Shown: in pieces, positions 567 through 26,596 of the stretch | Position numbering within the stretch: position 1 is the stretch's first letter | Layout: every line of letters starts with the position of its first letter | DNA from: an uncultured Draconibacterium sp. | Lineage (GTDB): Bacteria > Bacteroidota > Bacteroidia > Bacteroidales > Prolixibacteraceae | Direction of reading: 5' to 3' | Assembly: GCF_913060805.1 (NCBI RefSeq) | Contig: NZ_CAJXTC010000005.1 | Coordinates: 124,001-188,000, forward strand | DNA: 64,000 bases | Made by a program: the position numbers and the translations under genes | The notes under the pieces: model-generated | Database searches by the model: none | Told to the model about the DNA's origin: nothing | The model's input: only the letters and a program-made list of their open reading frames with translations

Positions 567-3500
567 ATGAAATCTATTCAATCAAGAAAAACACGAATGT
601 TCTGCTATGTCTTGTTTCTCCTGATCTTTCCATTCACAGTATTTGGTCAATCCAGCAGGATTTCCGGAACTGTTTATGATGCGGACGGAGTAACTTTACC
701 CGGTGTAACAGTAATGGTTGTAGGTACAACAAATGGTACCACTACCGACATTGATGGTAAATACACCATTAATGCAAATGCTGAAGACGTATTACAATTC
801 TCTTACATTGGATTTAAAACTCAAGAAGTCCAGTTAGAGGGAAAAACAACTATTGATGTAACAATGGCGGTTGAAACCATTGGTATTGATGAAGTTGTTG
901 CTATTGGTTACGGTACCCAACGTAAAGGTGAAGTAACCAGTGCTATTGCCAGTGTAAAATCGGAAGATTTTACGGTGGGTAAAATTGGCGATGCTGCCGA
1001 ACTGGTAAAAGGTAAAATTGCCGGTTTAAGTATTACCAATACTTCGGGCGACCCGAATGCCACTTCAAACATTATGCTGCGTGGTGTTACTACCATTATG
1101 GGTAATGTGTCGCCACTTGTACTTGTTGACGGAATTGAAGGTTCCCTAACAACCGTTGCTCCGGAAAACATTGAGTCGATCGACGTATTGAAAGATGCTT
1201 CGGCAGCTGCTATTTATGGTACAAGGGGTGCTAACGGTGTAATCCTTATTACTACCAAATCAGGTAAACGCGGTTCGTACTCAAATGCAACTTATTCAAG
1301 TTACGCATCTGTATCGGAGTGGTACAAAACCGCCGATTTTATGGATACGCACGATGTAATTTATGGTCGTACCAATTTCCCTTACGATGGTTACGATACT
1401 GATTGGTTAAAAGCCATTACACGTAAAGGTGGTTACACTCAAAACCACTCATTAAGTTTCGAAGGCGGATCTGACAAATCATCTTACTCGGCAAACGTTA
1501 CCTATTCGGATGAAGAAGGTATTATGCGTAAGAGTGATAGTGAAGACCTGAAAGCTCAATTGGATTTTAGCCAGTATGCGCTAAACGATATTGTGAAATT
1601 AAACCTGAATGTATTGTATTCAACACATAACAATACGAACAATAACAATGCTTACGCGTATCGTCAGGCATTAATTCACAACCCATCGTCTCCAGTTTAT
1701 CACGAAGATGGTGCTTACTACGAAGAGTTTAACCGTTTTCAGTACTACAACCCTGTAGGAATACAAAACGAGCGTATTGGTGATTACCGCAGCAAGTACG
1801 CGCGCGTGGTTGGAAACATTACTGTTGAGCCGATTAAAAACTGGCAAACTAACCTGATGTTATCACGTGGTGAAACATCTACAACAGGTCAGGACTACTA
1901 CACAAGTAAGTTTTATTCGCAAAGTACTGTTGATCCTGAAGATCAATACAGAACAATTCCTCGCGTTAGAGGTGGCGCCGGAAAATCATCGAGCAACTAC
2001 AAAAGTGAAAACGTAGAATTGACTTCGAAATATAATTTTGAAATTGAAAAGAGCCGTGTAACAGCTTTGGTTGGTTACAGCTACTTGTATAATGTGTCAG
2101 ATGGTTTCAGTGCAGGTAACTCTGAATTCCCATCAGAATCGTATTTATACAACAACCTCGGACAAGGTTTGTACTTAACCGATGAAGACCACACAGCAAG
2201 TATGGGATCGTCGAAGTCTGATAATAAACTAGTCGGTTTCTTTGGCCGTGCAAGTTACAGCTACGACAATCGTTTTAACCTGATTGCAGCTGTTCGTCGC
2301 GAAGGTTCTTCTAAATTCGGTGAAAACCACAAATGGGGTACTTTCCCATCAGCATCGGTTGGTTGGACAATCAGCAACGAATCGTTTATGCAGGCAGCAA
2401 CCTGGCTCGATAACTTAAAACTACGTGCCGGTTATGGTGTAACAGGTGTAATTCCTGGAAACAACTACATGTCGTTAACTACATACGACTACGATGCTTA
2501 CGGTAAGCACTTAAGTCAGGATGGTGTGTGGACTCCTTCGTTAAAGGTAGCACAAAACCCTAACCCTGATTTGAAATGGGAAACTACCCGCGAGGTAAAC
2601 ATTGGTGTTGACTGGACTATGTTTGATTCAAGATTAACTGGTTCGGTTGACGTGTACTCGAAAAAGACAGTAGACTTATTATACGACTATGCAGTACCTG
2701 TTCCACCAAACATGTACGGATGGACAACTGCTAACGTTGGTGAAATGCAAAACCGCGGTATTGAGTTTATGGTTTCAGGATCGCCGGTTAAAAAAGGTGA
2801 TTTCGAATGGAACTCAACTTTAACTCTGTCGCACAATGCCAACAAACTGTTGAGCTTGTCGAACGATTTATACGAAACTGATAACTTCATGGAAGTTGGT
2901 GGTGTTAGCGATCCTATTTCGGTAGCTACTCACGCCATGGAAGTTGGCCAACCTTTAGGTGATTTCTGGGGACTTCGTTCAGTAGGCGTTAGCAAAGATG
3001 GTTTTGTTTTGGTTGAAGTTTACGACGACGAAACTGATACATGGTCGGTTAAAGAATTTGATACAAGTTACAACCTGGAGTCAAATCGTCAGCGTTTAGG
3101 AAACGGTTTACCAAGTGTTTATGCCGGATGGAACAACACTTTCCGTTACAAAAACTTCGATTTGAGTGCAATGATCACCGGTCAGTTCGGTTACCAGATT
3201 TTGAATGTTCAACGTAGTTTCTACGAAAACAACTCAATCGCTTACAACCGCTTGAAAACTGCAGCCGACTTACATCCTGCAATTACTCCTGATGGAGCTC
3301 CTGTAATTGATGAAGCTACAGGCGAACAATTGATGGTTAAATTGTCAGGTTCAATGCCACAAGGTGTTTGGAGCGACCATATTGAAGATGGTGACTTTAT
3401 TAAACTGAGCAACGTTACTTTAGGTTACACGCTGCCAATCACAGGTAATTTTGAAAAATACATCAAAAACCTGCGTTTGTATGTTAGTGGTCAGAACCTT

Positions 3501-3629
3501 TTCTGTATTACCGGTTACTCAGGTTTAGATCCTGAAGTATCAACTTACTTCCTGGCACCTGGTATCGACGACCGTGATAAGTATCCAACTGTTCGTTCAT
3601 ACACTTTTGGACTTTCTGTTAACTTTTAA
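567..3629 (+). CDS. SusC-like TonB-dependent outer-membrane receptor
   Basis: This 1020-residue protein imports oligomers across the outer membrane by a TonB-driven pedal-bin mechanism with its SusD partner. After an N-terminal signal peptide ending near FGQ (residue 28), a carboxypeptidase-regulatory-like fold spans about 30-115 (GTVYDADG...LPGVTV, DIDGKY). A plug domain begins near IGYGTQ (about 115) and includes the family motif DVLKDASAAAIYGTRGANGV. The 22-strand barrel fills the rest and ends in an aromatic C-terminus (GLSVNF). The length is normal for SusC. The SusD gene follows only 12 bases after the stop, so the two are co-transcribed. The imported ligand cannot be read from the sequence; downstream peptidase and arabinose genes suggest glycopeptides or arabinosides. 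Confidence 0.95.
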   Translation: MKSIQSRKTRMFCYVLFLLIFPFTVFGQSSRISGTVYDADGVTLPGVTVMVVGTTNGTTTDIDGKYTINANAEDVLQFSYIGFKTQEVQLEGKTTIDVTMAVETIGIDEVVAIGYGTQRKGEVTSAIASVKSEDFTVGKIGDAAELVKGKIAGLSITNTSGDPNATSNIMLRGVTTIMGNVSPLVLVDGIEGSLTTVAPENIESIDVLKDASAAAIYGTRGANGVILITTKSGKRGSYSNATYSSYASVSEWYKTADFMDTHDVIYGRTNFPYDGYDTDWLKAITRKGGYTQNHSLSFEGGSDKSSYSANVTYSDEEGIMRKSDSEDLKAQLDFSQYALNDIVKLNLNVLYSTHNNTNNNNAYAYRQALIHNPSSPVYHEDGAYYEEFNRFQYYNPVGIQNERIGDYRSKYARVVGNITVEPIKNWQTNLMLSRGETSTTGQDYYTSKFYSQSTVDPEDQYRTIPRVRGGAGKSSSNYKSENVELTSKYNFEIEKSRVTALVGYSYLYNVSDGFSAGNSEFPSESYLYNNLGQGLYLTDEDHTASMGSSKSDNKLVGFFGRASYSYDNRFNLIAAVRREGSSKFGENHKWGTFPSASVGWTISNESFMQAATWLDNLKLRAGYGVTGVIPGNNYMSLTTYDYDAYGKHLSQDGVWTPSLKVAQNPNPDLKWETTREVNIGVDWTMFDSRLTGSVDVYSKKTVDLLYDYAVPVPPNMYGWTTANVGEMQNRGIEFMVSGSPVKKGDFEWNSTLTLSHNANKLLSLSNDLYETDNFMEVGGVSDPISVATHAMEVGQPLGDFWGLRSVGVSKDGFVLVEVYDDETDTWSVKEFDTSYNLESNRQRLGNGLPSVYAGWNNTFRYKNFDLSAMITGQFGYQILNVQRSFYENNSIAYNRLKTAADLHPAITPDGAPVIDEATGEQLMVKLSGSMPQGVWSDHIEDGDFIKLSNVTLGYTLPITGNFEKYIKNLRLYVSGQNLFCITGYSGLDPEVSTYFLAPGIDDRDKYPTVRSYTFGLSVNF

Positions 3630-3641
3630 AAATTGAGAATT

Positions 3642-5345
3642 ATGAAATTCATAAAAAACTCTATACTTAGTTTTTCCTTAGCAATTTTATTGTTAATGGG
3701 AGCTTGTACCGACCTGGACGAAACAGTGTATTCCGGGTTGACCGATGAAACCATCGATGTAAATGACCCGGAAGTAGTTGGGTACATGATGGGTGAAGCT
3801 TTAGCTCAGTTCCGCTTCCTTTACTGGGGATGGAACGGCTACTTCGATGTAATGGAAGAATGTAGCGATATTTACATGACTCCAAAACGTCTTGGTGTTG
3901 GTTGGGGTGACCTTTACATTCCAATGCACAAACACAGTTGGAACTCTACACAAGGCCACATTGATGCATTATGGAACTATGCCTATGTAGGAATTGGTTA
4001 TGCCAACAAAACGCTTGATGTATTACCTGAAACAGGTCCGGAACAAGCGCAAATGCGTTTTATCCGTGCATTAAACTACTACGTGTTGCTTGATGCATTC
4101 CGTAACGTGCCATTGGAAACAACTCAGGACACTGAACCTGGATACCTTCCGGAACAAGCAGATGCTCAAGAAATTTTTGATTTCTGTGTAAGCGAATTGA
4201 ATGCTATTAAAGATGATCTTGGAACTGAAAAAGTATTTGGTTATGCGAACCGCTTTGCTGCCGATATGGCGCTGGCAAAATTGTACCTTAACTACAATGC
4301 ATATTTCGGAACAAACGATAATTCATATTACACATTGGCTTTAGCCGAGGTTAATGATGTAATCGAGAACGGTGGTTATTCACTGGCTCCAAATTACCTT
4401 GATAACTTTAAAGTAGACATCGACGGATCGCCGGAAGTAATTTTCGCTATTCCGTTAGATCATACCAATGCATCGCACAACTATTTGGTAAATAAATGTT
4501 TGGTAGGTGCCGGTGCTGCTGCATACGGTTACAATGGTTCGCCATGGAACGGTAGCTGTGCTGTACCTCAGTTTATCGATACTTACGAAGAAGGTGACAT
4601 GCGTTTAGGTTATACCTGGGCAGGTGGTGTACAACATTTTGCAACTGAAGATGCTGATGGTAATACCATTCCTCAATCAGGCGATCCTATTCCTTTTGGA
4701 ACCGACGACTGGGCTGGCGAAGGTTACCTGAACTACTCAAGAAACGTTCACTCAATTGATAATCCTGGTGCCTACCAGCAAGAAGGTTACCGTTTTGTGA
4801 AAAGCGAAATTGAAGCTGGCGACTATGGTACTTACGGAAACGACGTAGCTTTCTTCCGTTTGGCTGATGCTATGTTTATTAAAGCTGAGTGTTTACTTCG
4901 TTTAGGACAGGATGAGCAAACTGCTGCCGACCTGATTACTGAAGTACGTAGCCGTTCTTTCGATTCTGCACAGGGTGCTGTTCGTACAGTTGCCGACCTG
5001 AAAGGTGGTAGTATTTACGATTACGGACACCGCGAATACACCAGCGAAGGATTTGCTAACTACGATCCTGCATCATACATCGTAACCATCGAAGGTGGTG
5101 ATGATATTGAATTAGGTGGTTTATTAGATGACCTGGCATGGGAATTTGCCGGCGAGCATCACCGTCGTCAAGACCTTGTTCGTTTTAAAATGAGCGATGG
5201 TAGAAATGTATTTAACGGAAAATCATGGTTCTGTAAAGATGCCACAACTGAAACACATTGGGACTATTTCCCAATTCCGAAAGCAGCTTTAGATGCTAAC
5301 ATTTCACTTGTTCAAAACGATGGTTATCAGGGTGCGACAAATTAA
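3642..5345 (+). CDS. SusD/RagB-like surface glycan-binding lipoprotein
   Basis: This 567-residue lipoprotein is the lid that binds ligand over the SusC pore at the cell surface. The signal peptide ends in a lipobox (LLLMGAC) with the acylated Cys at about residue 22. The middle has SusD-type TPR helices (AQMRFIRALNYYVLLDAF, ANRFAADMALAKLYLNY), and the C-terminal part keeps the RLADAMFIKAECLLRLG and EFAGEHHRRQDLVRF motifs typical of SusD. An upstream TTG at 3633 is in frame, but the ATG at 3642 gives a canonical lipoprotein signal and is preferred. It lies directly after SusC and before the DUF4859-like lipoprotein, the usual place of a PUL binding partner. Confidence 0.95.
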   Translation: MKFIKNSILSFSLAILLLMGACTDLDETVYSGLTDETIDVNDPEVVGYMMGEALAQFRFLYWGWNGYFDVMEECSDIYMTPKRLGVGWGDLYIPMHKHSWNSTQGHIDALWNYAYVGIGYANKTLDVLPETGPEQAQMRFIRALNYYVLLDAFRNVPLETTQDTEPGYLPEQADAQEIFDFCVSELNAIKDDLGTEKVFGYANRFAADMALAKLYLNYNAYFGTNDNSYYTLALAEVNDVIENGGYSLAPNYLDNFKVDIDGSPEVIFAIPLDHTNASHNYLVNKCLVGAGAAAYGYNGSPWNGSCAVPQFIDTYEEGDMRLGYTWAGGVQHFATEDADGNTIPQSGDPIPFGTDDWAGEGYLNYSRNVHSIDNPGAYQQEGYRFVKSEIEAGDYGTYGNDVAFFRLADAMFIKAECLLRLGQDEQTAADLITEVRSRSFDSAQGAVRTVADLKGGSIYDYGHREYTSEGFANYDPASYIVTIEGGDDIELGGLLDDLAWEFAGEHHRRQDLVRFKMSDGRNVFNGKSWFCKDATTETHWDYFPIPKAALDANISLVQNDGYQGATN

Positions 5346-5384: not shown

Positions 5385-7289
5385 ATGAAAAAGATACATA
5401 TATTATTAATTCTGGCGCTGGTTATCACGGCAGGATTATTTAGTTGCGGAGACAACGAAGACTTTAGCAGTATGCACGTCCTTACGGACGACGAGATTGC
5501 TGAAATAGCTCGCCAGGATTCGATTGCAGAGGCTCAGAAAAACATGATCAATGCAGATCTGATCCTTGAATATTCAATGGACATTACCATTAGTGCAAGC
5601 TTGTACGATGGTGGTAGTTTAGAAATTGAATTGGATAAAATTGCTGAAGCATTTGGTATTACTGAAGAAGAATTAATTGCAGGTATTGCTGGCGAAAGCG
5701 GAGCCCCTGAAATTAAAGGTTTTGCTATCGACGGATCTACTCACAATGATTTTGCGAGTGCAGCAAACACCAACGCTCCTTGGGGACACTGGTGGGATGC
5801 TGAAGGTGATGTAGTTGATTATGGCGATGATGCAATGGTTTTTGCTGAATTCTGGCCTGAAGATGCCTATTTTACAATTGGTCAATTTCCTGGTCATCTG
5901 GTAGAAGGACAACAGGTTGTATTCATTGAAGGATTGAAATACAACGAAGTTCGTGTTGCTGTTGTAGTTACTGTTAATGCTACTGTGCCGGGTGCTGTTG
6001 TGGCCGATGTGGTAAGCGAGCAGGATATTACAGTTGATGTAACTCCGAAAAGTGTTTACGATGCACAGCCGGTTGATTTCGACTTGGATGCAGTATTGAG
6101 CGATTTGGGTATTTCATCGATGGATGAAGTAACATTCTTAGGTGTTAACGCCGATGGTTCGTATGCTCAGGAAGCTGAAACCGGAAATGGTTTCTGGTAC
6201 AATGCCGATGGTTTTGTAACTACTTACTCAACCGGCGACCAGACCGTTTATACAAACTATGGCGACTTTGAAGCTAACCAGATCAGTCTTGGTCAAATGC
6301 CAGATGTTGTAACTGAAGGTATGAACTTTACGATCAAGTACGGTTTCATGGTAAATAGCAAAATCGTTATGCTGAATTTAACAGTAAACGCAATTGGTTA
6401 TATCGATCCTGAAACAGCACCTGAAGGCGATCCTGAAAGTGTAACAATCGATGTTACATTAAGCAAAGAATACACTGACGATTATGCAAGTGTAACCTAC
6501 GATATTCAGGAAACATTGCGTCAGGCATTTAAAATGACAACGTACCAGATTCACATGGCAATTAATTCAGGAGAGATCGTAGTGTACAACGGCGAGATCG
6601 CTGATTCAGTAACATACACTGCTGATGTACCTGGATATTGGTTAGCTGCTGATGGTTCTGATGTTCCTTACGCCGATGGTGTTGTTTGGACAAGTATCGG
6701 ACACAGCGAAACTGAGCTTTACCTGTTCGGTGGTAACCACCCTGCAAACGCAGTAGCCGGCGATGAAGTTACAACTACTTACATTGTTGAATACAATGGA
6801 ACTACTGTAACAATAAACTTAACATTCAGCATTTTAGCTGATAGCTATGTTGATCCGGAAACAGCTCCTGCAGGTGATCCTGAAGATTTAACAGCGACAA
6901 TTGCATTAAGCAAAGCATATAGCGACGATTATGTACCGGTAACTGAAGATGTAAAAGAAACATTACGTCAGGCATTTAAAATGACTACTTACCAGATCCA
7001 TAAAGCAATGCAGGACGGAACACTTAAACTTTATCAAGGTGAAGTTACTGAAGCAGATCCTGCTTACACCGCTACAGGTGTTGGCTACTGGCTGAATGCC
7101 GATGGCGCTGCTGTTGGTTACGCAGAGGGAGTTGTTTATTGTGCATTGGAACATAGTGAAACAGAGTTGTTCTTAAGCGCGGGTAACCACCCTGAAAATG
7201 CGGCTGCCGGTGATGTTGTTACAACAACCTACATTGCTACCTGCAACGGAGGTTCGGTAACTTTTGATATTACATATACTGTAGAATAG
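5385..7289 (+). CDS. Lipoprotein of four DUF4859-like repeats, probable surface glycan-binding protein
   Basis: A 634-residue lipoprotein with signal peptide and lipobox (LFSCG, Cys about 21). After a short linker the protein is built from four related domains of about 130-150 residues (roughly 55-195, 205-340, 345-490, 494-634). They share motifs such as GxWxxADG, an acidic-aromatic core and a closing TTTYI or VVTVNA beta strand. I recognise these as DUF4859-like; the fold and ligand are not known to me. Repeats 3 and 4 are nearly identical in places (both hold ETLRQAFKMTTYQIH). Position immediately after SusD is where SusE/F-type surface glycan-binding proteins sit, so a binding role is inferred. 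The next gene carries the same kind of domain at its C-terminus, implying both bind the same target. Confidence 0.75.
   Translation: MKKIHILLILALVITAGLFSCGDNEDFSSMHVLTDDEIAEIARQDSIAEAQKNMINADLILEYSMDITISASLYDGGSLEIELDKIAEAFGITEEELIAGIAGESGAPEIKGFAIDGSTHNDFASAANTNAPWGHWWDAEGDVVDYGDDAMVFAEFWPEDAYFTIGQFPGHLVEGQQVVFIEGLKYNEVRVAVVVTVNATVPGAVVADVVSEQDITVDVTPKSVYDAQPVDFDLDAVLSDLGISSMDEVTFLGVNADGSYAQEAETGNGFWYNADGFVTTYSTGDQTVYTNYGDFEANQISLGQMPDVVTEGMNFTIKYGFMVNSKIVMLNLTVNAIGYIDPETAPEGDPESVTIDVTLSKEYTDDYASVTYDIQETLRQAFKMTTYQIHMAINSGEIVVYNGEIADSVTYTADVPGYWLAADGSDVPYADGVVWTSIGHSETELYLFGGNHPANAVAGDEVTTTYIVEYNGTTVTINLTFSILADSYVDPETAPAGDPEDLTATIALSKAYSDDYVPVTEDVKETLRQAFKMTTYQIHKAMQDGTLKLYQGEVTEADPAYTATGVGYWLNADGAAVGYAEGVVYCALEHSETELFLSAGNHPENAAAGDVVTTTYIATCNGGSVTFDITYTVE
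6405..7286 (+). repeat. Intragenic tandem repeat, 447-bp period (repeats 3 and 4 of the DUF4859-like protein)
   Basis: The units begin at 6405 (gatcctgaaacagc) and 6852 (gatccggaaacagc), exactly 447 bp or 149 codons apart. The 15-residue peptide ETLRQAFKMTTYQIH starts at 6510 in one copy and 6957 in the other, with only synonymous base changes between them. This points to a fairly recent in-frame duplication followed by purifying selection. Confidence 0.8.
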
Positions 7290-7302: not shown

Positions 7303-9354
7303 ATGATTTTTAAATCAATATTTAAAGCGCATAAGTCGGAGAAATCCGGCTTATGCTCCTTTACCTTCCTGTTTATTTTTTTATTCGTTTTTGCTGCCTG
7401 CGGAAACGATAGTGTAACTCCTGATCCCGATCCGGAGCCTGATCCGGTTGATACAACCACTACAACACCTCCGGTTGATACCGTTGTGGTGTTAAGCGAA
7501 TCAGACGTTACGGATTATGAAAAATTTTATAAGCCCGGCGAGTTTGTCAACATGGATTTTTTGCGCGGCGACAGCAAATGGTCGTTCGTACGCAGCAAAC
7601 AATCGGAGCACTTTATCGTGTTCTGGGAACCACAATTTGGTTTAGATCCGAATGCTGCCAGTGTACCTGAAGCACTGCGCGTAGATATTGACGATCTGTT
7701 GGAAAAGGCTGAATCATTCTTCGATGTGAACGTAAACACATTGGGTTTTGCCGAACTTGGAGCAGGTAAGTCAAACCTCGATAAGTATAAAATGGAAATC
7801 TACTTGTTGTACCAAACCGAGTGGTTGGCAACGGGTAGTGGATACGATGATATGATTGGTGCGCTTTGGGTAAATCCGAGTACCTGTAAGCCTGTAGGTT
7901 CTACAATTGCACACGAAATTGGACACAGTTTCCAGTACCAGGTGTATGCAGACTTACTGGCCTATGGCGGAATTCCAAACGAATTTAACCGTGGTTTCCG
8001 ATATGGTTTCGGTGGTAACGGCGGAAACGGCTTCTGGGAGCAATGTGCACAGTGGCAGTCGTTCCAATCGTACCCGGTTGAAGCTTTTCAATCGTATAAC
8101 TTTGGTGTTTATATGGCTAATTATCATCGTCACTTCGGTCACGAGTGGCAGCGGTACGCAAGTTACTGGTTGCAGTATTACTGGGCTGATAAACACGGCA
8201 TCGACTTTTTGGGCAAATTGTGGCGCGAATCAGTAGGACCGGAAGATCCGATTGAAGCCTACATGCGCATAAACGGTATGTCGGTAGCCGAAATGAATAA
8301 CGAACTTTACGATGCGGTATCGCATTTAGTAACCTGGGATATTGATGCCATCCGCGAAACCGGAAGCAACTATATCGGACAGTTTGAATATAAATTTTAC
8401 ACAGCTGCTGATGGAAGTTACCAGGTAGCATACAGCAAATGTCCCGGAACAACCGGATACAATGTAATCCCGTTAAATGTTCCGGAAGCCGGTACTGTGG
8501 TTACCACAAAATTTGCTCTTCTGCAGCCGGGATCAGCTCTTGCAGCCAACGACCCCGGAACTTACGACGAAAACGGTACGTCAATGACGACCTCGAACTA
8601 TAATCCGGGCACACTCACCAGAGCCGGGTTCCGATATGGTTATGTGGCATTGCTCGAATCGGGCGAACGCGTTTACGGCGAGATGAACCGTAAATTGTCT
8701 GCCGAAATCGAATTTACCGTACCCGAAGGTTGCGAACGTTTGTGGCTGGTAGTTTTAGGTGCTCCTTCATCATACGAATCGCATGGTTGGGACGAAAAGG
8801 AAAGCAACGACGACCAGTGGCCTTATTCAGTGAGTTTCACCAATACCGATTTATTAGGAAACGTAGTTATCGATCCGAATGCCGATCCGGAAGATCTGAC
8901 ATTGACTTACGACGTTTCGTTTCCGGCTGATGCGGAAAATTATACAGGTGACTACGTAAACTTGAATACCAATGGCGATATAAACAAAGTGGTTCAGGCT
9001 TTGGCACTGCAACCATCAGAAATTACAGGCGCGTTATTAGGTATCGGTGCAACACCACAAGAAGGTAAAATTGCCTTTGCAGCTGTTCAGTCGGATGGTT
9101 CGTTAAGTTACAATTTCACGGCAAACGACTACGGATTTTGGTTCGATAGCAATGGCGACGTAATTGGCTGGGGTAACGACAACGACAGTAAAGTATTTAG
9201 CGAATTTGCCGTTGGTACTTTCGAGTTCCATATTGGCCAGTTCCCCGGAAAATCAAGCGCCGGTGATACGTACACCATAAAAGAAGCTTTGGTTTACCAG
9301 AAAGATGGTACACAATACCAGGTAACATTTGTATTTAACGTTACAATAAATTAG
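7303..9354 (+). CDS. DUF6055-type secreted zinc-peptidase-like lipoprotein with C-terminal DUF4859-like domain
   Basis: A 683-residue lipoprotein: a lysine-rich n-region, a hydrophobic core and a lipobox (FAACG), then a proline/threonine-rich linker (residues about 38-65) that probably holds the enzyme off the membrane. The catalytic part (about 80-400) resembles DUF6055 and contains HEIGH at H204-E205-H208, with a likely third zinc ligand E246 in the FWEQCAQW motif, so a gluzincin-like peptidase is expected. The last 140 or so residues (from about 545) repeat the DUF4859-like domain seen in the previous gene (FWFDSNGDVIGWG, GQFPGKSSAGD). It follows that gene by 13 bases and precedes the CotH gene by 4. 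Peptidase activity is inferred from the motif; substrate is unknown. Confidence 0.72.
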   Translation: MIFKSIFKAHKSEKSGLCSFTFLFIFLFVFAACGNDSVTPDPDPEPDPVDTTTTTPPVDTVVVLSESDVTDYEKFYKPGEFVNMDFLRGDSKWSFVRSKQSEHFIVFWEPQFGLDPNAASVPEALRVDIDDLLEKAESFFDVNVNTLGFAELGAGKSNLDKYKMEIYLLYQTEWLATGSGYDDMIGALWVNPSTCKPVGSTIAHEIGHSFQYQVYADLLAYGGIPNEFNRGFRYGFGGNGGNGFWEQCAQWQSFQSYPVEAFQSYNFGVYMANYHRHFGHEWQRYASYWLQYYWADKHGIDFLGKLWRESVGPEDPIEAYMRINGMSVAEMNNELYDAVSHLVTWDIDAIRETGSNYIGQFEYKFYTAADGSYQVAYSKCPGTTGYNVIPLNVPEAGTVVTTKFALLQPGSALAANDPGTYDENGTSMTTSNYNPGTLTRAGFRYGYVALLESGERVYGEMNRKLSAEIEFTVPEGCERLWLVVLGAPSSYESHGWDEKESNDDQWPYSVSFTNTDLLGNVVIDPNADPEDLTLTYDVSFPADAENYTGDYVNLNTNGDINKVVQALALQPSEITGALLGIGATPQEGKIAFAAVQSDGSLSYNFTANDYGFWFDSNGDVIGWGNDNDSKVFSEFAVGTFEFHIGQFPGKSSAGDTYTIKEALVYQKDGTQYQVTFVFNVTIN

Positions 9355-9358
9355 CACA

Positions 9359-18660: not shown

Positions 18661-20910
18661 ATGAAACAAATTTTATTCATCTCATTAATTCTTCTGTCTG
18701 CTTTTGCAGGCAATACAGTTTCTGCGCAACTCACAAAAGAAGACTACGCACAAGCTGATTCTGTAATGAAACTCAGGGACTTGGTTTACGATCAGGTGGC
18801 CCAAATTACCTGGATCGATTCAACGGATGTATTCTGGTACCGTATAAAAACGCGCGAGGGTATAAAGTACCAACTGGTTGATGCGCAAAAAGGATCGAAA
18901 AAAACTGCTTTTGATACCGATAAACTGGTTGAAGCGCTTAATAAGCAACTCGATAAAAAAACTTCTGCCAAAGAATTGTATTTGAGGGATCTGAAATTCG
19001 ACGAGGATAAAAATACGATTCATTTTAATTTTCAATCAACAGACTGGATCTGCGATTTGAAAAAATATGATCTGAAAAAAGATACAGCCGAAAAAGAAGA
19101 GCGATCGAATGATTACTGGGGAGGATTTTTTGATGAGAAGGGAAATGACCCGGTTCCATCGCCTGACAGTGTTTGGACAGCTTTTATACGAGAAAACAAC
19201 GTTTACGTAAAGGATAACAAAACAAACGAGGAGTTTCAACTGAGTTACGATGGAGCACCCGGCGATTTTTATTCGTCGTATTTTTCATGGTCTCCTGATT
19301 CAAAAAAACTGGCGGTAAACAAAGTGCGCGATGCTGAAGAGCGCGAGATCTTCTTTGTTGAATCGTCGCCAAAAGACCAGTTACAGCCTATTTTGCGCAA
19401 ACGCGATTACCGCAAGCCGGGCGATGCCATGCCGATAAAACATCCGGCATTGTTTGATGTGGAAAGCAAAAAACAAATTCCGGTAAATACCGATGCTTTT
19501 GAACACCAGTTTAGTCTCACCAACCCGCGATGGAAAGATGATGCTTCGTCATTTACTTTCGAGTTTAACCAGCGCGGGCATCAGGCCTACAAAGTTGTAG
19601 AAGTGAATGGCGAAAGCGGCGATGTTAAAGTATTGATCGACGAGCAAAGCAAAACATTTATCGATTACAGTGGAAAACGTTACCGCTATGATCTGGAGGA
19701 AAGCAACGAAATACTTTGGGCATCGGAACGCGACGGATGGAATCATCTTTACCTGATCGATTCGAAAACCGGGGAGGTGAAAAATCAGATCACAAAAGGA
19801 GAGTGGGTGGTTCGTCGTGTAATAAAAGTTGATGACGAAAACCGTACGATATTCTTTTACGGATCGGGTAAAAACAGTGACGAAGATCCTTACTATTTGC
19901 ATTGTTACAAGGTGAATTTTGATGGTAGCGGTTTAACCGATCTTACACCGGAGAAAATGAATCACGATGTGTCGTTTTCAAAAGATCTGAATTATTTTAC
20001 CGATACGTACTCAACGGTTGAAACGCCACCATTTACAGTAGTTCGCAGTTCTGTTGATGGAAAAGTTTTGGTGGAGCTGGAGAAAACAGATATTTCAGAT
20101 TTGCAGGAAAAAGGATGGATCGCTCCTGAGCCGTTTGTGGCAAAAGGCCGCGATGGAAAAACCGATATTTGGGGAAATATCTACCGCCCAACCAATTTCG
20201 ATGAAAATAAGAATTACCCGATTATCGAATACATTTATGCCGGCCCGCACGATTCGTTTGTTCAAAAAAGTTTTAGCCCGGTTAGTTATGCTTTCTCAAG
20301 CCTTGCCGAGTTAGGTTTTATCATTGTTCAGATGGATGGAATGGGAACATCGAACCGTTCGAAAGCTTTCCAGGATGTATGTTGGAAAAACCTGAAAGAT
20401 GCCGGTTTTCCCGATCGTATTTTGTGGATAAAAGCCGCTGCTGAAAAGTACAGCTTCATGGATACAAGCAGAGTTGGTTTGTTTGGTGCGTCGGCCGGCG
20501 GGCAAAGTACTTTGGGAGGTTTGTTATTTCATCCTGAGTTTTATAAAGCCGGAGTTTCGGCCTGTGGATGTCACGATAACCGCATGGATAAAATCTGGTG
20601 GAACGAACAATGGATGGGATACCCTGTAGGACCTGAATACGCAGAATGTTCGAATGTTGAGAACGCCTACAGACTGCAAGGTAAATTAATGCTGATTGTT
20701 GGAGAAGTAGACGATAATGTTGATCCGGCATCAACCATGCAGGTTGCCGATGCATTGATAAAAGCTAACAAAGACTTTGAACTGGTGGTGCTGCCTGGCG
20801 TAAACCACACACTTGGAGGAACGTATGGCGAGCAAAAGCGCCGCGATTTCTTCATTCGTAATTTTCTAAAAGAAGAAACACCTGATTGGAATGCTGTAAA
20901 ATCAAATTAG
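18661..20910 (+). CDS. S9 family dipeptidyl peptidase (DPP IV-like), copy 2
   Basis: A 749-residue tandem paralogue of the preceding gene, alignable end to end without visible gaps. It has a signal peptide (FAGNTVSAQ), a propeller with the same WSPDSKKLAV and WASERDGWNHLYLID blocks, and a complete catalytic triad: S611 in GASAGG, Asp in GEVDDNVDPAS, His in GVNHTLGG. Differences cluster in the first 150 residues and next to the active site (GRSAGG versus GASAGG; ALSGRYDE versus TLGGTYGE), which could shift substrate preference. The copies are separated by 39 bases and likely form one transcript with the peptidase genes around them. Confidence 0.9.
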   Translation: MKQILFISLILLSAFAGNTVSAQLTKEDYAQADSVMKLRDLVYDQVAQITWIDSTDVFWYRIKTREGIKYQLVDAQKGSKKTAFDTDKLVEALNKQLDKKTSAKELYLRDLKFDEDKNTIHFNFQSTDWICDLKKYDLKKDTAEKEERSNDYWGGFFDEKGNDPVPSPDSVWTAFIRENNVYVKDNKTNEEFQLSYDGAPGDFYSSYFSWSPDSKKLAVNKVRDAEEREIFFVESSPKDQLQPILRKRDYRKPGDAMPIKHPALFDVESKKQIPVNTDAFEHQFSLTNPRWKDDASSFTFEFNQRGHQAYKVVEVNGESGDVKVLIDEQSKTFIDYSGKRYRYDLEESNEILWASERDGWNHLYLIDSKTGEVKNQITKGEWVVRRVIKVDDENRTIFFYGSGKNSDEDPYYLHCYKVNFDGSGLTDLTPEKMNHDVSFSKDLNYFTDTYSTVETPPFTVVRSSVDGKVLVELEKTDISDLQEKGWIAPEPFVAKGRDGKTDIWGNIYRPTNFDENKNYPIIEYIYAGPHDSFVQKSFSPVSYAFSSLAELGFIIVQMDGMGTSNRSKAFQDVCWKNLKDAGFPDRILWIKAAAEKYSFMDTSRVGLFGASAGGQSTLGGLLFHPEFYKAGVSACGCHDNRMDKIWWNEQWMGYPVGPEYAECSNVENAYRLQGKLMLIVGEVDDNVDPASTMQVADALIKANKDFELVVLPGVNHTLGGTYGEQKRRDFFIRNFLKEETPDWNAVKSN

Positions 20911-20930
20911 CAAATTATAAAAACTCTGTA

Positions 20931-21764
20931 ATGACTAACTTTTTCGCTCATAAAAATTCAAAGATTCTGGTGCTACTGCTTACCGGAATCTTGTCGTTCT
21001 CTTGTCTGACGGCCAAGGTGCCGGCAAAGGAGTACGAAATTGTAAAACCGCCCAAAGAACTGAAACTCGATCCGTTTTATAAAAAGTATGTCAATGTAAA
21101 TGGCATTCATATTATGAGTTCGCACCGGGTGCCCGATTCTGCTTTTGTTAAGGCCTGCGAGATCATTGATTTTATGACCGGCGGCCTGCCGGAAGAAGTG
21201 CTTAATCAGATGGTAAAACTGAATACCCGTGTTGGAATTATGGCGCGTTACGAAGGAACAACTGATATTCCTGAGCACGCGTATTTAGCCAACGACACAA
21301 CACTGAACTGGGACGTTCGTGCACGCGGACTGGGGGGAACTATGGAAGATCCGCTGACAACCTGTGCCGAAGAAAACCTGCTGTGTTACCAGATTGACAA
21401 GTACCATGCAGAAGACATTCTGATTCACGAATTTGCACACACCATTCACGGTGTTGGAATTATGCCGCTTGACGATAAATTTAACGATTTACTTCAGGAG
21501 AAGCTCGATGCCGCAATGGCAGCCGGAAAATACGAAAACACCTACGCTGCCACCAATATCTGGGAATATTGGGCCGAAGGTGTACAAAACTGGTTTAACG
21601 TAAATGCCGAAGTTGAAACAACCGACGGCAAACACAATTGGGTAAATACCCGCTCGGACATGAAAAAGTACGATCCTGATTTGTATGAAATCGTAGGTCG
21701 CTATTTTCCCGAGTTCGAGGTTAGCCCATCGTGCCATGCCGCTGTTAATTTATATGTGCAGTAA
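20931..21764 (+). CDS. Small exported HExxH metallopeptidase-like protein
   Basis: A 277-residue protein with an N-terminal signal (LLLTGILSFSC, a likely lipobox at Cys 24 or so). The motif HEFAH (H166-E167-H170), continued as TIH, and a downstream WEYWAEGVQNWFN block (E212 and E216 candidates for the third ligand) indicate a zinc peptidase of gluzincin type. I do not recognise a named family with certainty. A longer reading starting at 20886 overlaps the end of the S9 gene, but the ATG at 20931 gives the clean signal peptide. The gene is 20 bases downstream of the second S9 peptidase and 18 upstream of the Crp-type regulator, so it belongs to the peptidase operon. Confidence 0.72.
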   Translation: MTNFFAHKNSKILVLLLTGILSFSCLTAKVPAKEYEIVKPPKELKLDPFYKKYVNVNGIHIMSSHRVPDSAFVKACEIIDFMTGGLPEEVLNQMVKLNTRVGIMARYEGTTDIPEHAYLANDTTLNWDVRARGLGGTMEDPLTTCAEENLLCYQIDKYHAEDILIHEFAHTIHGVGIMPLDDKFNDLLQEKLDAAMAAGKYENTYAATNIWEYWAEGVQNWFNVNAEVETTDGKHNWVNTRSDMKKYDPDLYEIVGRYFPEFEVSPSCHAAVNLYVQ

Positions 21765-21782: not shown

Positions 21783-22502
21783 ATGGAAACAATCGTTCAA
21801 CCCAGAAGAAGGGTAGCATCAGTAATCAAAGATGATTCGCGCTTGCGCGATATTCACATGTTCCGAAAATTGTCAGAAGCCGAATTGCTCGACCTCGAGA
21901 TCAATTCAGTGTATAAAACATTTAAAAAGCGTTCGGTAATCTACCGCGAAGGTTGCAGACACGCAGGTTTGTACATCGTGCTGAAGGGCATTGTAAAAAT
22001 CTATAAGATCGGTGGAAACGGAAAGCAGCAGATTCTGAAATTTGCACAACAAGGCGATCTTATTGGTTACCGCTCGTTGCTTACCCACGAGTTGGCCTGT
22101 ACCTCGGCAAAAGCCTACGACGACACCTTGGTGTGTCATGTGCCGTACAATACCATGTTACATTTATTTCAGCAGAACTGGGATTTCACCCACGGAATGA
22201 TGAAATTTATGTGTAAAGAACTGGGCGAATCAAACACCTTTATTACCGATATTGCTCAGAAAACGGTTCGCGAACGTACGGCCGAAATGTTGCTGATTTT
22301 AAAAGACGAATTTGGGCTCGATAATTACAACGCGCTTCAAATTGCCGTAACACGCGAAGATCTGGCAAATATGGTTGGTACCGTTACTGAATCGCTCATC
22401 CGCGTAATGTCCGAATTCAGAAATGAAAATCTGTTGGATCTTACCGGACGAAAAATAATATTTCTCGATACAAAGAGATTGCAGGCAATTGCAAATATCT
22501 GA
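21783..22502 (+). CDS. Crp/Fnr-family transcriptional regulator
   Basis: A 239-residue regulator. The N-terminal half is a cyclic-nucleotide-binding-type beta roll (IYREGCRHAGLYIVLKGIVKIYK, QQGDLIGYRSLL). After a dimer helix (about 150-175) comes a winged helix (about 175-235) with the recognition segment VTREDLANMVGTVTESLIRVMSEF. No Cys cluster for an iron-sulfur centre is present, so it is not an oxygen-sensing Fnr. The effector is unknown. Its place inside the peptidase operon, 18 bases after the HEFAH gene, suggests it tunes this locus or responds to its products. A target site was not identified. Confidence 0.9.
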   Translation: METIVQPRRRVASVIKDDSRLRDIHMFRKLSEAELLDLEINSVYKTFKKRSVIYREGCRHAGLYIVLKGIVKIYKIGGNGKQQILKFAQQGDLIGYRSLLTHELACTSAKAYDDTLVCHVPYNTMLHLFQQNWDFTHGMMKFMCKELGESNTFITDIAQKTVRERTAEMLLILKDEFGLDNYNALQIAVTREDLANMVGTVTESLIRVMSEFRNENLLDLTGRKIIFLDTKRLQAIANI

Positions 22503-22658
22503 TTTTATATAGATGTAGATAAAGTTAGTTCCTGTTTTTCATAGAACAAAGTTTAGGTGGGATAGTCAGTGCCTGTGGTTGCCATTGTGTAATCCGGGGC
22601 TGGCTTTTTCTTAATTTTAAAACCTGTCAAAATTAACTTGCTTATGAATGATCTTAAA

Positions 22659-24449
22659 ATGAATTTCCGGAAAATAATATTGACAACAGTGTTTTTAGTT
22701 GCAGCCGCGGTTGCAATGTGCCAAAACACAGCCGACACTGTTTTTGCTACCGTTTCGATGGATGCGCCGCACACGCACTATTACCAGGTAGAAATGGATT
22801 TTAACAGTAATGGTGTGCAAAATTTCGAGGTAAAAATGCCCGTTTGGACACCCGGTTATTACTGGATGTTGAACTTTGCCAAAAACGTTACCAGTTTTTC
22901 GGCCAGCAATGAAAACGGTACCCCGCTAAAGTTTTCAAAAACAGATTTAAATACCTGGCAGATAAAAAGCGGTGATGCAAAACGCGTAAAAATATCGTAC
23001 GATGTTTATGCTTACGAACGTTCGGTTGCCGATCCGTGGCTGGATGACGGACGTGCTTTTATTCAGCCAACAGGTGTTTTTATGTTTTCACAAGAATTGA
23101 TTCAAACGCCGGTAGTGTTAACAGTAAATCCGTACAAAGAATGGACGACCGTAACAACCGGTTTAGATTGTGTAAATGAAAAGGAATACATTTACCGGGC
23201 TGCAGATTTCGATGTGCTTTATGACAGCCCGATTCTTGCCGGAAATATGGAAATCCTGTCGTTTGAAGTTGATGGAATTCCATATACCATATCAATGGAA
23301 AATCCGGCAGAGTTTGATCGCGAGACATACATTGGCGACTTCAAAAAGATTGTAAAAAGTGCCACAGATTTAATGGGTGATATTCCGTATTCGCACTATT
23401 CATTTCTGATCATGGATCAGGGATTTGGCGGTTTGGAGCACCGAAATTCAATGGCAGTTTTCTCGAACTCGAACTACGACGTTACCAATAGCCGCGGATA
23501 CCAATCGTGGCTGGCGTTTATTGCGCACGAATTTTTTCATTTGTACAACGTAAAACGTATTCGCCCGATTGAATTGGGGCCGTTCGATTATTGCAACGAA
23601 AACCTCACCAACATGCTTTGGGTAGCCGAAGGATTAACGGTTTATTACGAATACATGGTGTTGAATCGTGCCGGATTAATGTCGCAGCAGGAAGTGCTCG
23701 ACGCCTATAGCAAAACCATTGCCAACTTCGAAAATGCCAACGGACGTAAACATTTAACGGCCCGCCAGGCGAGTTACGATACCTGGCTCAATTTCTTCAA
23801 CTGGAACAACCACACTGACAATACTGTCATTTCGTACTACGATATTGGTAATGCATTGGGCATGCTGCTCGATTTAAAGATCAGGTACGAAACCGACGGC
23901 GAAAAGTCGCTGGAAGATGTAATGCGTACCATTTATAACGATTTCCATAAAAAGCAAAACCGGGGTTACACCGATGAAGAATTCCGCGAAGTATGTGAAA
24001 CGATTGCCGGATGTTCGCTGGAAGAAATTTTTCATTACGCTGAAATAACCGGGCCGATGGATTACCAGAAATACCTGGATTATGTGGGTGTTAAAATGAA
24101 CCTTACGCCAACAAAAACTGTGTCATACGGACTGACTTTGCGAAAAGCTGGCGAGGGCTGGCAAATCACCGACATCGACCGAAATTCTCCGGCATGGCAA
24201 ATTGGCCTGAGCATTAATGACCAAATTCTTACCGTTAACGGTGTCGAAGTAAATGAGACGTTGATCGGTTCGTTAACGCATCCTGAAAAACAAGGTGAAA
24301 TTACGCTGAAAGTAAAACGCAGAAGTGGAGAGAAAGAATTTACCATTCCGACTTTTGACCAGGAATGGTGCGATTATAAAATGCAGGTGAAAACCGATAT
24401 TAACGATAAACAAAAACAATTACTGGAGAGCTGGATTCTCGAAAAATAG
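22659..24449 (+). CDS. M61 family peptidase with PDZ domain
   Basis: A 596-residue exported peptidase of the glycyl aminopeptidase (M61) family, which removes N-terminal small residues. The ATG at 22659 gives a clean signal peptide (MNFRKIILTTV...AMCQ); an ATG at 22644 is also possible. A beta-rich N-domain (about 25-180) precedes the thermolysin-like domain with HEFFH at H290-E291-H294 and the family's following LYNVKRIRP, and a third-ligand motif in WVAEGLTVYYEY. A PDZ domain (about 490-570; GWQITDIDRNSPAWQIGL) follows. Its stop is 8 bases before the GH43 gene, tying the peptidase block to arabinose release. Confidence 0.92.
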   Translation: MNFRKIILTTVFLVAAAVAMCQNTADTVFATVSMDAPHTHYYQVEMDFNSNGVQNFEVKMPVWTPGYYWMLNFAKNVTSFSASNENGTPLKFSKTDLNTWQIKSGDAKRVKISYDVYAYERSVADPWLDDGRAFIQPTGVFMFSQELIQTPVVLTVNPYKEWTTVTTGLDCVNEKEYIYRAADFDVLYDSPILAGNMEILSFEVDGIPYTISMENPAEFDRETYIGDFKKIVKSATDLMGDIPYSHYSFLIMDQGFGGLEHRNSMAVFSNSNYDVTNSRGYQSWLAFIAHEFFHLYNVKRIRPIELGPFDYCNENLTNMLWVAEGLTVYYEYMVLNRAGLMSQQEVLDAYSKTIANFENANGRKHLTARQASYDTWLNFFNWNNHTDNTVISYYDIGNALGMLLDLKIRYETDGEKSLEDVMRTIYNDFHKKQNRGYTDEEFREVCETIAGCSLEEIFHYAEITGPMDYQKYLDYVGVKMNLTPTKTVSYGLTLRKAGEGWQITDIDRNSPAWQIGLSINDQILTVNGVEVNETLIGSLTHPEKQGEITLKVKRRSGEKEFTIPTFDQEWCDYKMQVKTDINDKQKQLLESWILEK

Positions 24450-24457: not shown

Positions 24458-26596
24458 ATGAGGAAATTTCTACTGAGCATGATTGCGGGAATTTTTATCC
24501 TGTCGTCGTGCGGAAATAAAACAACAGAACAAAAAACAACACACATTTCTAACCCTGTTTTGCCCGGCTGGTTTGCCGATCCTACAATTAAAAAGTTTGG
24601 CGATATTTATTACATCTACGCCACTACCGACAATGAAATGCTGGCATCGGGCGCGCCAACCGTTTGGTACAGTCGAGACCTGCAAAACTGGTACAACTAT
24701 ATAATGGAGGTGCCTACATTGAATTCGGTGGCGCTGCGCAACTTTTGGGCACCCGATATTATGCAAGGCGAAGATGGCCGTTATTACCTGTATTTTGGAA
24801 ATTGTCAGGCAGGATGTAACATTTACGGCTATGTTTCGGATACGCCGGTTGGCCCGTGGGAAAAATTACACGACGATGATACCCCGGTAATTGCACAAAA
24901 CTATCCTATCGATGGATTCCCATCGTTAGATGCTCAGTTTTTTCAGGACGATGATGGCCGCATTTATGGCTACTGGGGAACCTGGGTACACTACAACAGC
25001 GGTTATGCCGTTGGCGAGTTAAACGCCGAAACAATGGATGTAATGTCGAACTCAACCAATATTCCGCTGGCACAAACGCCAAATCCTTTTGAGGCCGCTT
25101 ACATGATGAAAAAGGGCGATAAATACATTCTGATGTATTCAGCCGAATCGTGCCACAACGAAACTTACAAAGTATTGTATTCATACGCTAACGATCCATA
25201 CGGGCCGTTTACACCGGGAGAAAATAACCCGACTTTGCAGACCAATGAGGACGGAACGACTCACGGACCGGGACACCACTCGGTGCTGGAAAATGGCGAC
25301 GATTATTACATCGTTTACCACAAACACGATGTTCCGTTTACTGCAGGTGGAATGGCGCGCCAGGTGTGTATCGACAGCATGATCTTTGAAAACGATTCAA
25401 CAATTAAAGCGGTAGTTCCAACGCAAAAAGGGATTAAAGCTTTTATTCCGTCGGAAGTTCCTGAAGATATTGCGTTCAAAGCGACAGCGTCGGCTTCTTC
25501 GTTTTATCATTTGCAGTCGCCTGCTTACGACTATGAATATAAGCCGGCTTACGCTTTTGATAACGACAACGCCACCATGTGGAAAGCTGCAGACAATACG
25601 TTCCCACAAAGCCTGTCGGTTGATTTGGGCGAAGAAAAAGACATTAAACGAATTGCCACACAGTTCGAATTCTCTCCATACTATTATCAGTACAAAATTG
25701 AGTATTCTACCGATAATACAAATTGGGAAGTTTATGCTGATCGCTCGGAAAACCGCATACCGGGAAGTCCGATGATCGACGATAATGACGTGAGCGCGCG
25801 TTACCTCAAACTTACTATTTTGGGAACAGAGCAAACCGGAACTTTCGCCGCTGTTTGGAACATGAAAGTCTATGAAGAAACATTCGATATTCCTTTGAAC
25901 CTGGTAAATAAACCATCGGAGAATGAGCCGGGAGCAGCAAGCTCGCAGAGTATGATTGTTGGTTTTGATGCCAATTCACTTTCAGGCAAATCATTCGATA
26001 AACTGGCAAACACTGGTTCGTTGGGTGGTGATTTGGTGCGAAAAGGAGATGTAAAGATCGTTACCGACAAAGAAAGCGGAACAAAAGCCATTGAATTCTC
26101 AAAAGGAGCTTTGGAATTGGACGGAATTGCTGTACCAAGAAGTCTGGAGTGGAACGGTGCATTTACAATCTCAACATGGGTGAAAAATCCTGAAGTAAGC
26201 GACAGAGACGAATGTCTGGCATCGTGGTGCGACAGAAGCGCGCATTACCTGGCCAATTCGTACAACGCAGTTCACTACAATAAAAGTAACTACGGTGCGG
26301 TGGCTCACCTCGACGGCCATTTTGATTTGCCTTACAACAAAGTACCCGAAGCCAATAAATGGCACCACATTGTAGTAACATTCGATGGGGTTGTGGAAAA
26401 AGTTTATGTTGACGGCCAGTTGGATACTGCACAAAATATGTTGCTGTCGTCGGCAGTTGATAATGCAAAGATCAGAATTGGCGCTTCAGATGCCGGTGAG
26501 TACTACACCGGTTTAATGGCTGCCTTTGAAATGTATGATTATGCTTTGCCACAATCGGCGATTGAGAAGGCATACAGCGAATCAAATTTGAAATAG
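24458..26596 (+). CDS. GH43 lipoprotein with F5/8-type and LamG-like domains, probable arabinofuranosidase
   Basis: A 712-residue surface or periplasmic lipoprotein (lipobox LSSCG). The five-bladed GH43 domain (about 30-330) has the expected acidic residues: catalytic base in WFADPT, pKa-modulating Asp in FWAPDIM and general acid Glu in FEAAYMM, with PGHHSVL in the metal-site loop. A discoidin-like carbohydrate-binding domain follows (about 345-475; SVDLGEEKDIKRIATQFEF), then a concanavalin/LamG-type domain (about 500-712; FTISTWVKNPE, WHHIVVTFDG, YVDGQLD). GH43 enzymes act on alpha-L-arabinofuranosides or beta-xylosides; the araBAD genes downstream favour arabinose. It lies 8 bases after the M61 gene and is followed by a strong terminator. 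Confidence 0.88.
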   Translation: MRKFLLSMIAGIFILSSCGNKTTEQKTTHISNPVLPGWFADPTIKKFGDIYYIYATTDNEMLASGAPTVWYSRDLQNWYNYIMEVPTLNSVALRNFWAPDIMQGEDGRYYLYFGNCQAGCNIYGYVSDTPVGPWEKLHDDDTPVIAQNYPIDGFPSLDAQFFQDDDGRIYGYWGTWVHYNSGYAVGELNAETMDVMSNSTNIPLAQTPNPFEAAYMMKKGDKYILMYSAESCHNETYKVLYSYANDPYGPFTPGENNPTLQTNEDGTTHGPGHHSVLENGDDYYIVYHKHDVPFTAGGMARQVCIDSMIFENDSTIKAVVPTQKGIKAFIPSEVPEDIAFKATASASSFYHLQSPAYDYEYKPAYAFDNDNATMWKAADNTFPQSLSVDLGEEKDIKRIATQFEFSPYYYQYKIEYSTDNTNWEVYADRSENRIPGSPMIDDNDVSARYLKLTILGTEQTGTFAAVWNMKVYEETFDIPLNLVNKPSENEPGAASSQSMIVGFDANSLSGKSFDKLANTGSLGGDLVRKGDVKIVTDKESGTKAIEFSKGALELDGIAVPRSLEWNGAFTISTWVKNPEVSDRDECLASWCDRSAHYLANSYNAVHYNKSNYGAVAHLDGHFDLPYNKVPEANKWHHIVVTFDGVVEKVYVDGQLDTAQNMLLSSAVDNAKIRIGASDAGEYYTGLMAAFEMYDYALPQSAIEKAYSESNLK

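Follow-up and report, generated by a model that had tools for sequence, protein, structure and literature searches.

The window, a stretch of 64,000 nucleotides (G000:C5:124001-188000) within the 5.48-Mb, 79-contig draft genome of an uncultured Draconibacterium sp., carries at positions 567-26596 a gene cluster that combines a SusC/SusD pair with a series of peptidases, a DUF5695 protein, and a GH43 enzyme. Open reading frame (ORF) calls and Pfam and NCBIfam profile searches bear out what an earlier note had read from the letters alone: the genes it named are all present, all on the plus strand, with peptidases, a CotH-family gene, DUF5695, and GH43 following SusC/SusD, and with an arabinose (ara) operon beyond them (Table 1). 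Its count of six peptidase-like genes is fair, the two S9 enzymes and the M61 enzyme being assigned by family, the DUF6055 protein by family and motif, and two others by HExxH alone; a Crp-type regulator was omitted. Adjacent SusC and SusD genes (567-5345), with linked carbohydrate-active enzymes and a hybrid regulator, mark a polysaccharide utilization locus (PUL). What would a PUL do with so many peptidases?

The cluster is the second part of a longer array. Ahead of the window on its contig, and beyond the coordinates given in the earlier note, an arabinan-type PUL (L001 4505-18035) lies directly 5' of the cluster. It consists of GH51 and tandem GH43 genes (both by Pfam), a first SusC/SusD pair whose SusC matches that of the window at the DNA level, and a hybrid two-component regulator (L001 13998-18035), the pair and the regulator being named from sequence. 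The regulator gene ends at window position 35, and the cluster begins 531 bases past it. From GH51 to galM the array spans about 48 kb, of which the earlier note covered the second part.

Table 1. Genes of the cluster and of the adjoining ara region, in window positions, with profile scores in bits and family cut-offs where given.
Feature	Position	Strand	Basis and remarks
SusC/RagA TonB-dependent transporter	567..3629	+	TIGR04056, 728 bits (cut-off 368); Pfam plug and barrel
SusD surface lipoprotein	3633..5345	+	PF07980, 78.8 bits (cut-off 23.1); lipobox
Lipoprotein with four DUF4859 domains	5385..7289	+	PF16151, four stretches; lipobox; place typical of a surface glycan-binding protein, putative binding role
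DUF6055 metallopeptidase of MEROPS M106 type, DUF4859 at the C-terminus; candidate for extensin cleavage	7303..9354	+	PF19527, 537 bits (cut-off 27); HEIGH motif
CotH-family protein	9359..10669	+	PF08757, 162.8 bits
DUF5695 protein, candidate carbohydrate-active enzyme, predicted PL27 fold	10796..13498	+	1326 bits
Type IX secretion system (T9SS)-secreted protein with F5/8 and fn3, candidate metallopeptidase	13691..16330	+	Pfam; motif HEGIH...WFHEG
S9 dipeptidyl peptidase (DPP)-IV-type peptidase A	16366..18621	+	PF00930, PF00326; GRSAGG motif
S9 DPP-IV-type peptidase B	18661..20910	+	PF00930, PF00326; GASAGG motif
HEFAH lipoprotein, putative Pro-Pro endopeptidase-like	20886..21764	+	ATG at 20931 is the likelier start
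Crp-type transcription regulator	21783..22502	+	PF00027, PF13545
M61 aminopeptidase with PDZ	22638..24449	+	PF17899, PF05299
GH43 with F5/8 and LamG, lipoprotein	24458..26596	+	PF04616, 146.5 bits; lipobox
Terminator-like hairpin and T tail	26660..26688 (about)	+	between GH43 and ara operon; read by eye
AraR-like NUDIX/winged-helix regulator	26925..27605	+	PF21906, PF00293; PF19368 AraR_C 23.4 bits, just below cut-off 23.8
araA, L-arabinose isomerase	27651..29162	+	PF02610, PF24856, PF11762
SSF symporter, probably arabinose uptake	29196..30875	+	PF00474; substrate suggested by place
araD-like class II aldolase	30895..31578	+	PF00596
araB-like FGGY kinase	31670..33340	+	PF02782, PF00370
Aldose 1-epimerase (galM)	33358..34479	+	PF01263

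The company that DUF5695 keeps in other genomes offers one answer. The best 80 of 154 DUF5695 relatives in the genome collection were taken as loci, and their 928 ORFs were clustered, most clusters being named from one representative by Pfam or NCBIfam and the others by likeness to window proteins. Controls were 40 stretches of 20 kb each, placed on a grid or arbitrarily before annotation, in eight DUF5695-bearing genomes including that of the window; one grid position in genome G343 was excluded as it contains a DUF5695 gene. GH127-type beta-L-arabinofuranosidases flank DUF5695 at 61/80 loci, against 0/40 controls. Also found in none of the controls are DUF885 proteins (33/80, for example L080 6583-8292; in L048 one precedes DUF5695), GH36, GH97, or GH27 alpha-galactosidase families (23/80), DUF6055 (22/80), M24 X-Pro peptidases (21/80), AraR/A/B/D genes (18/80), GH51 (17/80), amino acid or peptide transporters (17/80), GH42 (13/80), HEFAH (11/80), and the T9SS metallopeptidase (8/80). 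S9 peptidases occur at 46/80 loci versus 1/40 controls, the one match (L126, genome G261) being separated by about 50 kb from the DUF5695 gene of its genome, and GH43 at 32/80 versus 1/40. Any hydroxyproline (Hyp)-type gene is found at 34/80 loci versus 0/40, including a Hyp epimerase at 18 and a glycyl-radical enzyme of the HypD cluster at 3 (each 0/40).

Peptidase, arabinose, and Hyp genes occur jointly at 31 of the 80 loci; just two (L023 and L060) have none of them. In two Muricauda-group loci (L059 and L064) the order runs DHDPS-like, aldehyde dehydrogenase, Hyp epimerase, oxidase, S9, GH127-type, DUF5695, and GH43, and beyond them araR on the other strand, GH51, GH127, GH51, and araB. 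Peptidase and arabinose genes stand together beside DUF5695 in Flavobacteriaceae (41/44), Prolixibacteraceae (7/11), Cytophagaceae (3/3), Sphingobacteriaceae (2/8), and Marinilabiliaceae (2/2), and in none of the loci from Hymenobacteraceae (0/3) or Chitinophagaceae (0/1).

Co-occurrence was also assessed by profile searches of 395 Bacteroidota genomes, with Fisher tests that ignore relatedness. DUF5695 is present in 14 of these and Pro_racemase, above cut-off, in 105. DUF6055 matches 86 genomes at E <=0.001, of which 47 pass the family cut-off; dropping the 74 that score <200 bits leaves 12 above 200 bits, one of them (G351) with its match split across two frames. DUF5695 and DUF6055 share six genomes (4.9e-7), within 10 kb of each other in 5/6, and DUF5695 and Pro_racemase share 10/14 (4.6e-4), within 20 kb in 7/10; the chance expectation for each of these proximities is about 1%. 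DUF6055, DUF5695, peptidases, and arabinose genes co-occur above chance. These observations of gene content, order, and phylum-wide co-occurrence are the base on which the rest is built.

Among the Hyp-type genes, the racemase-family neighbor that was scored is a 4-hydroxyproline epimerase at the equivalog level, with 594.8 bits against a cut-off of 376. The OCD neighbor is a pyrroline-2-carboxylate reductase (375 bits, cut-off 322). Thermophagus (L027), Marinilabilia (L063), and a Bacteroidales metagenome-assembled genome (L092) have instead a radical-SAM protein and a glycyl-radical enzyme. Of the three, the L063 enzyme is the one scored, and it is a trans-4-hydroxy-L-proline dehydratase (1181 bits, cut-off 1100; best PDB chain 6vxc, 2.3e-282); the best model for the L027 radical-SAM protein is the activase of this dehydratase, at 272 bits, below its cut-off of 425. 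Either the epimerase or the glycyl-radical enzyme, never both, is present at 21 of the 34 Hyp-linked loci. The strongest indication of what the substrate is comes from finding two unrelated enzymes that act on the same amino acid next to the same set of glycosidases. Relatives match both known routes of Hyp catabolism, the epimerase pathway and the HypD glycyl-radical dehydratase, at the equivalog level, but unlike the known systems these genes adjoin arabinosidase and peptidase genes. A quick tree was built from the window and 79 of the 80 loci; with up to 10 kb taken on each side, the Hyp-linked label requires 10 changes on it, at least nine of them forced by well-supported branches, and Hyp linkage has repeatedly been gained or lost. 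The window's own genome has an epimerase-pathway operon (L100 5160-9831) within a group of AraC, DHDPS-like, aldehyde dehydrogenase, epimerase, and oxidase genes (L100 3939-9831), its epimerase scoring 558 bits on NF010578 (cut-off 376). It also has a GH127-type enzyme (L143 4562-7609) that is nearest to the linked ones, with 71% identity to one.

Which proteins might open the substrate? DUF6055 has been tied to MEROPS family M106 (PMC11241649), and the gene at 7303-9354 has both the family match and the HExxH motif, as well as a lipoprotein signal, judged by eye; searches of PDB sequences gave it no match. Its score on the Svx/AvrXca model NF040510, 68.3 bits, is far under the cut-off of 625, which makes it a relative of that equivalog rather than one of its members. 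Svx of Pectobacterium atrosepticum is a secreted HExxH metallopeptidase, reported in 2026 to degrade an extensin-enriched carrot fraction while sparing mucin and concanavalin A (PMC13164431). Without its C-terminal domain it loses extensin cleavage and keeps azocasein cleavage, and docking links this domain to arabinan chains (PMC13164431). Svx is, as described there, a single virulence gene (PMC13164431), whereas its weak profile relative here sits in a locus and carries DUF4859 at the C-terminus (residues 546-668, by Pfam); an acyltransferase-like C-terminal domain belongs to the definition of the Svx/AvrXca equivalog. DUF4859 may bind glycan, since it fills this C-terminal place and also forms the neighboring four-domain lipoprotein. 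The T9SS protein is a further candidate: its HEGIH...WFHEG motif is invariant in 8/8 aligned rows, the window's included, although Pfam gives it no peptidase family and its sequence matches in the PDB are all with sorting domains or with domains of the fn3 or Ig type. Two observations on DUF6055 stand apart from the locus: the genome has a second, shorter DUF6055 gene (L101 7970-9394, G000:C2) that is 62% identical to that of L054, and another genome has a short, broken remnant (G343:C1:799502-799708) near an intact copy.

The HEFAH lipoprotein matches no family in Pfam (threshold 0.001) or NCBIfam (0.01), and models as a Pro-Pro endopeptidase (PPEP)-like protein. Its residues H166, E167, H170, Y205, and E212 are invariant in 12/12 rows, an HExxH-Tyr-x6-Glu arrangement shared with PPEP-3 (His153, Glu154, His157, Tyr190, and Glu197). 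Identity to PPEP-1, -2, and -3 (MEROPS M34) is 13-19%, and the HEFAH protein differs from them in being a lipoprotein within a Bacteroidota glycan locus; the word "hydroxyproline" does not appear in the main text of two PPEP papers. The Pfam ATLF family does not take in this type of domain, the window protein having no match at 0.001 and the fusion protein described next reaching 21.0 bits against a cut-off of 27.4.

That fusion comes from genome G238, in which a locus runs GH127, SusC, SusD, DUF6055, GH97+HEFAH, GH43, GH127, and S9, and in which a genome profile search found no DUF5695. The fusion protein (L144 9673-12390) is 906 residues long, its GH97 part spanning 33-663 and its HEFAH-type domain, 44% identical, spanning 673-902. 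Its GH97 part scores 672.8 bits with alpha-galactosidase structures versus 227.3 for the best alpha-glucosidase, and the GH97 of L056 shows the same preference (547.1 versus 227.1). The G238 locus is an independent second design.

What substrate unites these activities? Extensins are rigid, cross-linked, sugar-coated, Hyp-rich wall proteins of plants and green algae, and they have Hyp-Hyp bonds; Hyp in arabinogalactan proteins (AGPs) is mostly noncontiguous. The sugars of extensin are alpha-galactose on serine and beta-arabinofuranose on Hyp (PMC13164431, PMC7263609). The locus is probably a utilization system for extensin-type Hyp-rich glycoproteins. The earlier note had proposed joint breakdown of the protein and glycan of arabinosylated, (hydroxy)proline-rich glycoproteins, and the enrichments around DUF5695, the Svx comparison, and the HEFAH model support that much on comparative grounds; it had also lumped extensin with AGP, and here the enzyme set, as predicted, seems to fit extensin better.

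The substrate, the cellular locations, and the order of steps are what we infer from these parts. At and outside the cell surface, the T9SS metallopeptidase and the DUF6055 protein would cut the glycosylated rod, held by DUF4859 domains, and the HEFAH lipoprotein would cut between neighboring prolines or hydroxyprolines. Glycopeptides would be imported through SusC/SusD. Arabinose would be stripped by GH43, the upstream GH51 and tandem GH43, the unlinked GH127-type enzyme, and DUF5695, and the S9 and M61 peptidases would trim the peptides. Arabinose would then pass to araA-araB-araD, and Hyp would enter the epimerase pathway, whose genes are on a different contig.

Several observations count against this proposal. 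GH127 models match none of the 13 genes at 567-26596, which also keeps the locus from qualifying as a bifidobacterial HypBA cluster, and Pfam scans of the locus genes find no alpha-galactosidase and no Hyp gene; the genome's own Hyp operon and GH127-type gene lie on contigs other than that of the window. None of the 11 loci of Prolixibacteraceae, the window's own family, has a linked Hyp gene, and 25/34 Hyp-linked loci are from Flavobacteriaceae. Eight of the 34 are counted by a D-amino-acid oxidase cluster alone and four by an OCD cluster alone, and the oxidase, aldehyde dehydrogenase, and DHDPS neighbors reach no Hyp-specific cut-off. The 80 loci are mutually related and the clusters were defined on them, which makes the p-values of the enrichments too small; labeled SusC/SusD clusters occur in just 13/80 (0/40 controls). 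For the key proteins, the Svx score is far below equivalog level, and DUF5695 has its fold in common with PL27, whose substrate, gum arabic, is an AGP. The fold matches come from VIA-align 2 alone, which considers only chains ranked by Foldseek, and the best Z for HEFAH, 13.8, is in a range that, according to the tool, mostly helical models can reach without kinship. The HEFAH sequence profile matches nothing significantly in the PDB (best 0.18; lethal factor 0.58), and two of its four strong homologues in the 395 genomes have no neighbors from the named clusters. The M61 and CotH proteins have no clear part in the scheme.

Synteny is also patchy. The earlier note took a break of synteny as evidence against its proposal, and such a break is seen in part: among the loci seen, the whole block recurs only in Maribellus sediminis (L020) and, altered, in Thermophagus (L027). 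In the closest relative, Draconibacterium mangrovi (L017), the stretch from DUF5695 to GH43 is kept and the SusC-to-CotH half is replaced by SusD, SusC, a second SusD-like gene, and a BT_3987-like gene, the sole DUF6055 match being on a contig other than that of HEFAH. Ten named genomes chosen among the 80 loci were searched for DUF6055, Hyp epimerase, and HEFAH, each of which is present in 6/10. Draconibacterium orientale and Draconibacterium sediminis have none of the three by genome search; Maribellus sp. YY47 has HEFAH, with DUF6055 and the epimerase not found. Thermophagus does not have the epimerase, Allomuricauda taeanensis has the epimerase only, and F. pectinovorum is without HEFAH. 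In D. orientale and D. sediminis GH51-DUF5695 still adjoins the ara operon. DUF5695 thus goes with arabinose more closely than with protein; the system is modular. A Crp-type gene 91% identical to that of the window sits at the equivalent place in D. mangrovi, between HEFAH and M61.

A bolder version of the extensin proposal, which we advance tentatively and hold to be somewhat less probable than not, is that Bacteroidota own a dedicated extensin system treating the glycoprotein as one nutrient. HEFAH, in one genome fused to an alpha-galactosidase, would cut Hyp runs, glycan-sensing metallopeptidases would open the rod, and DUF5695 and GH127-type enzymes would remove Hyp-arabinosides, with many species catabolizing sugar and Hyp from the same locus, some via the glycyl-radical Hyp dehydratase. 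If so, we know of no Hyp-Hyp endopeptidase described before HEFAH, and DUF5695 would represent a new family of enzymes acting on Hyp-arabinosides.

How new would this be? An open-access literature search found no description of such a locus and one passing mention each of DUF5695 and DUF6055; PULs as such are known, and the search turned up none that brings together Pro-Pro endopeptidase-like, arabinoside, alpha-galactoside, and Hyp functions. As of 2015, the genes and microbes that degrade extensin were described as little known (PMC4454575). The HypAA-HypBA1-HypBA2 cluster of Bifidobacterium longum degrades the Hyp-linked arabino-oligosaccharides of Hyp-rich glycoproteins, with arabinobiose taken up by an ABC importer, and its description, as far as it was available, mentions neither peptidases nor Hyp catabolism (PMC7263609). 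If the extensin proposal is true, it would open to testing a path by which Bacteroidota obtain carbon and nitrogen from extensin, suggest functions for DUF5695, DUF6055, and the unnamed Pro-Pro endopeptidase-like family, show PULs that reach past the sugars of a glycoprotein to its amino acid, and supply enzymes for cleaving Hyp-rich proteins.

The alternative that survives best, though it is unlikely, is that the target is AGPs of the gum arabic type, which are likewise Hyp-rich and arabinosylated but carry large galactan chains with rhamnose-glucuronate caps. In predicted fold and in sequence, DUF5695 is closest to PL27, a lyase that acts on the rhamnose-glucuronate of gum arabic; the peptidases and Hyp catabolism would also be compatible with an AGP, and GH42 and GH43 flank DUF5695 at 13 and 32 of the 80 loci. 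The likeness to the PL27 enzyme BACCELL_00875 is one of fold and sequence, at 16% identity, and the neighbors of DUF5695 are arabinose and Hyp genes. No galactanase or glucuronidase was seen among the recurrent families, with 46 of the 101 unlabeled ORF clusters of at least 380 residues (61 of them on the DUF5695 strand) scanned jointly and 25 of 95 matched families listed; among those listed were one PL11-type and one GH78-type protein. Alpha-galactosidases and the predicted Pro-Pro endopeptidase fold suit the Ser-linked alpha-galactose and contiguous Hyp of extensin. A gum arabic locus was set aside because galactan enzymes were missing among the families seen.

A little less likely again is an arabinan or rhamnogalacturonan side-chain PUL beside its own ara operon, with peptidases that scavenge peptides or help remove wall proteins. 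The upstream GH51, tandem GH43, SusC/SusD, and regulator would fit it, as would pectin-typical GH88 and GDSL esterases downstream (40352-44469), the GH51-DUF5695-ara arrangement of D. orientale with no labeled peptidase cluster within 22.7 kb, and the absence of Hyp linkage from the 11 Prolixibacteraceae loci. It leaves unexplained the Hyp genes at 34 of the 80 loci, the two alternative Hyp enzymes, the alpha-galactosidases, and the GH97-HEFAH fusion. An arabinan-only PUL was considered and set aside, as was a general proteolysis locus, which leaves the Hyp genes unexplained. A chance merger of a broad protein-feeding cluster with an independent arabinose operon, to which the hairpin between the two and the lack of a known glycoprotein link for M61 and Crp might point, is very improbable given that peptidase and arabinose genes pair beside DUF5695 in five named families at gene distances far under chance expectation.

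Downstream of the cluster, the hairpin suggests a separate ara transcript. The Bacteroides arabinose regulon likewise has a NUDIX-type regulator, AraR, ahead of its ara genes, and its description, in the part available, does not mention Hyp or Pro-peptidase genes (PMC4666351). A sigma-70 promoter scan of window positions 1-20000 gave fewer sites than shuffled sequences did. Beyond the ara region, 40352-44469 holds a GH88-GDSL esterase fusion and a second GDSL-esterase gene, both of pectin type. Another SusC/SusD pair lies at 57488-62629, preceded on the opposite strand (52802-56667) by a GH9-like gene and a GlcNAc 2-epimerase-like gene. The window's DUF5695 protein and its D. mangrovi counterpart share 93% identity, which points to a Draconibacterium host, and the genome also encodes a distant paralogue, about 22% identical (L102 8063-10900, G000:C20; 168.9 bits on the Pfam model), whose nearest locus match, at 48%, adjoins a T9SS metallopeptidase in L071.

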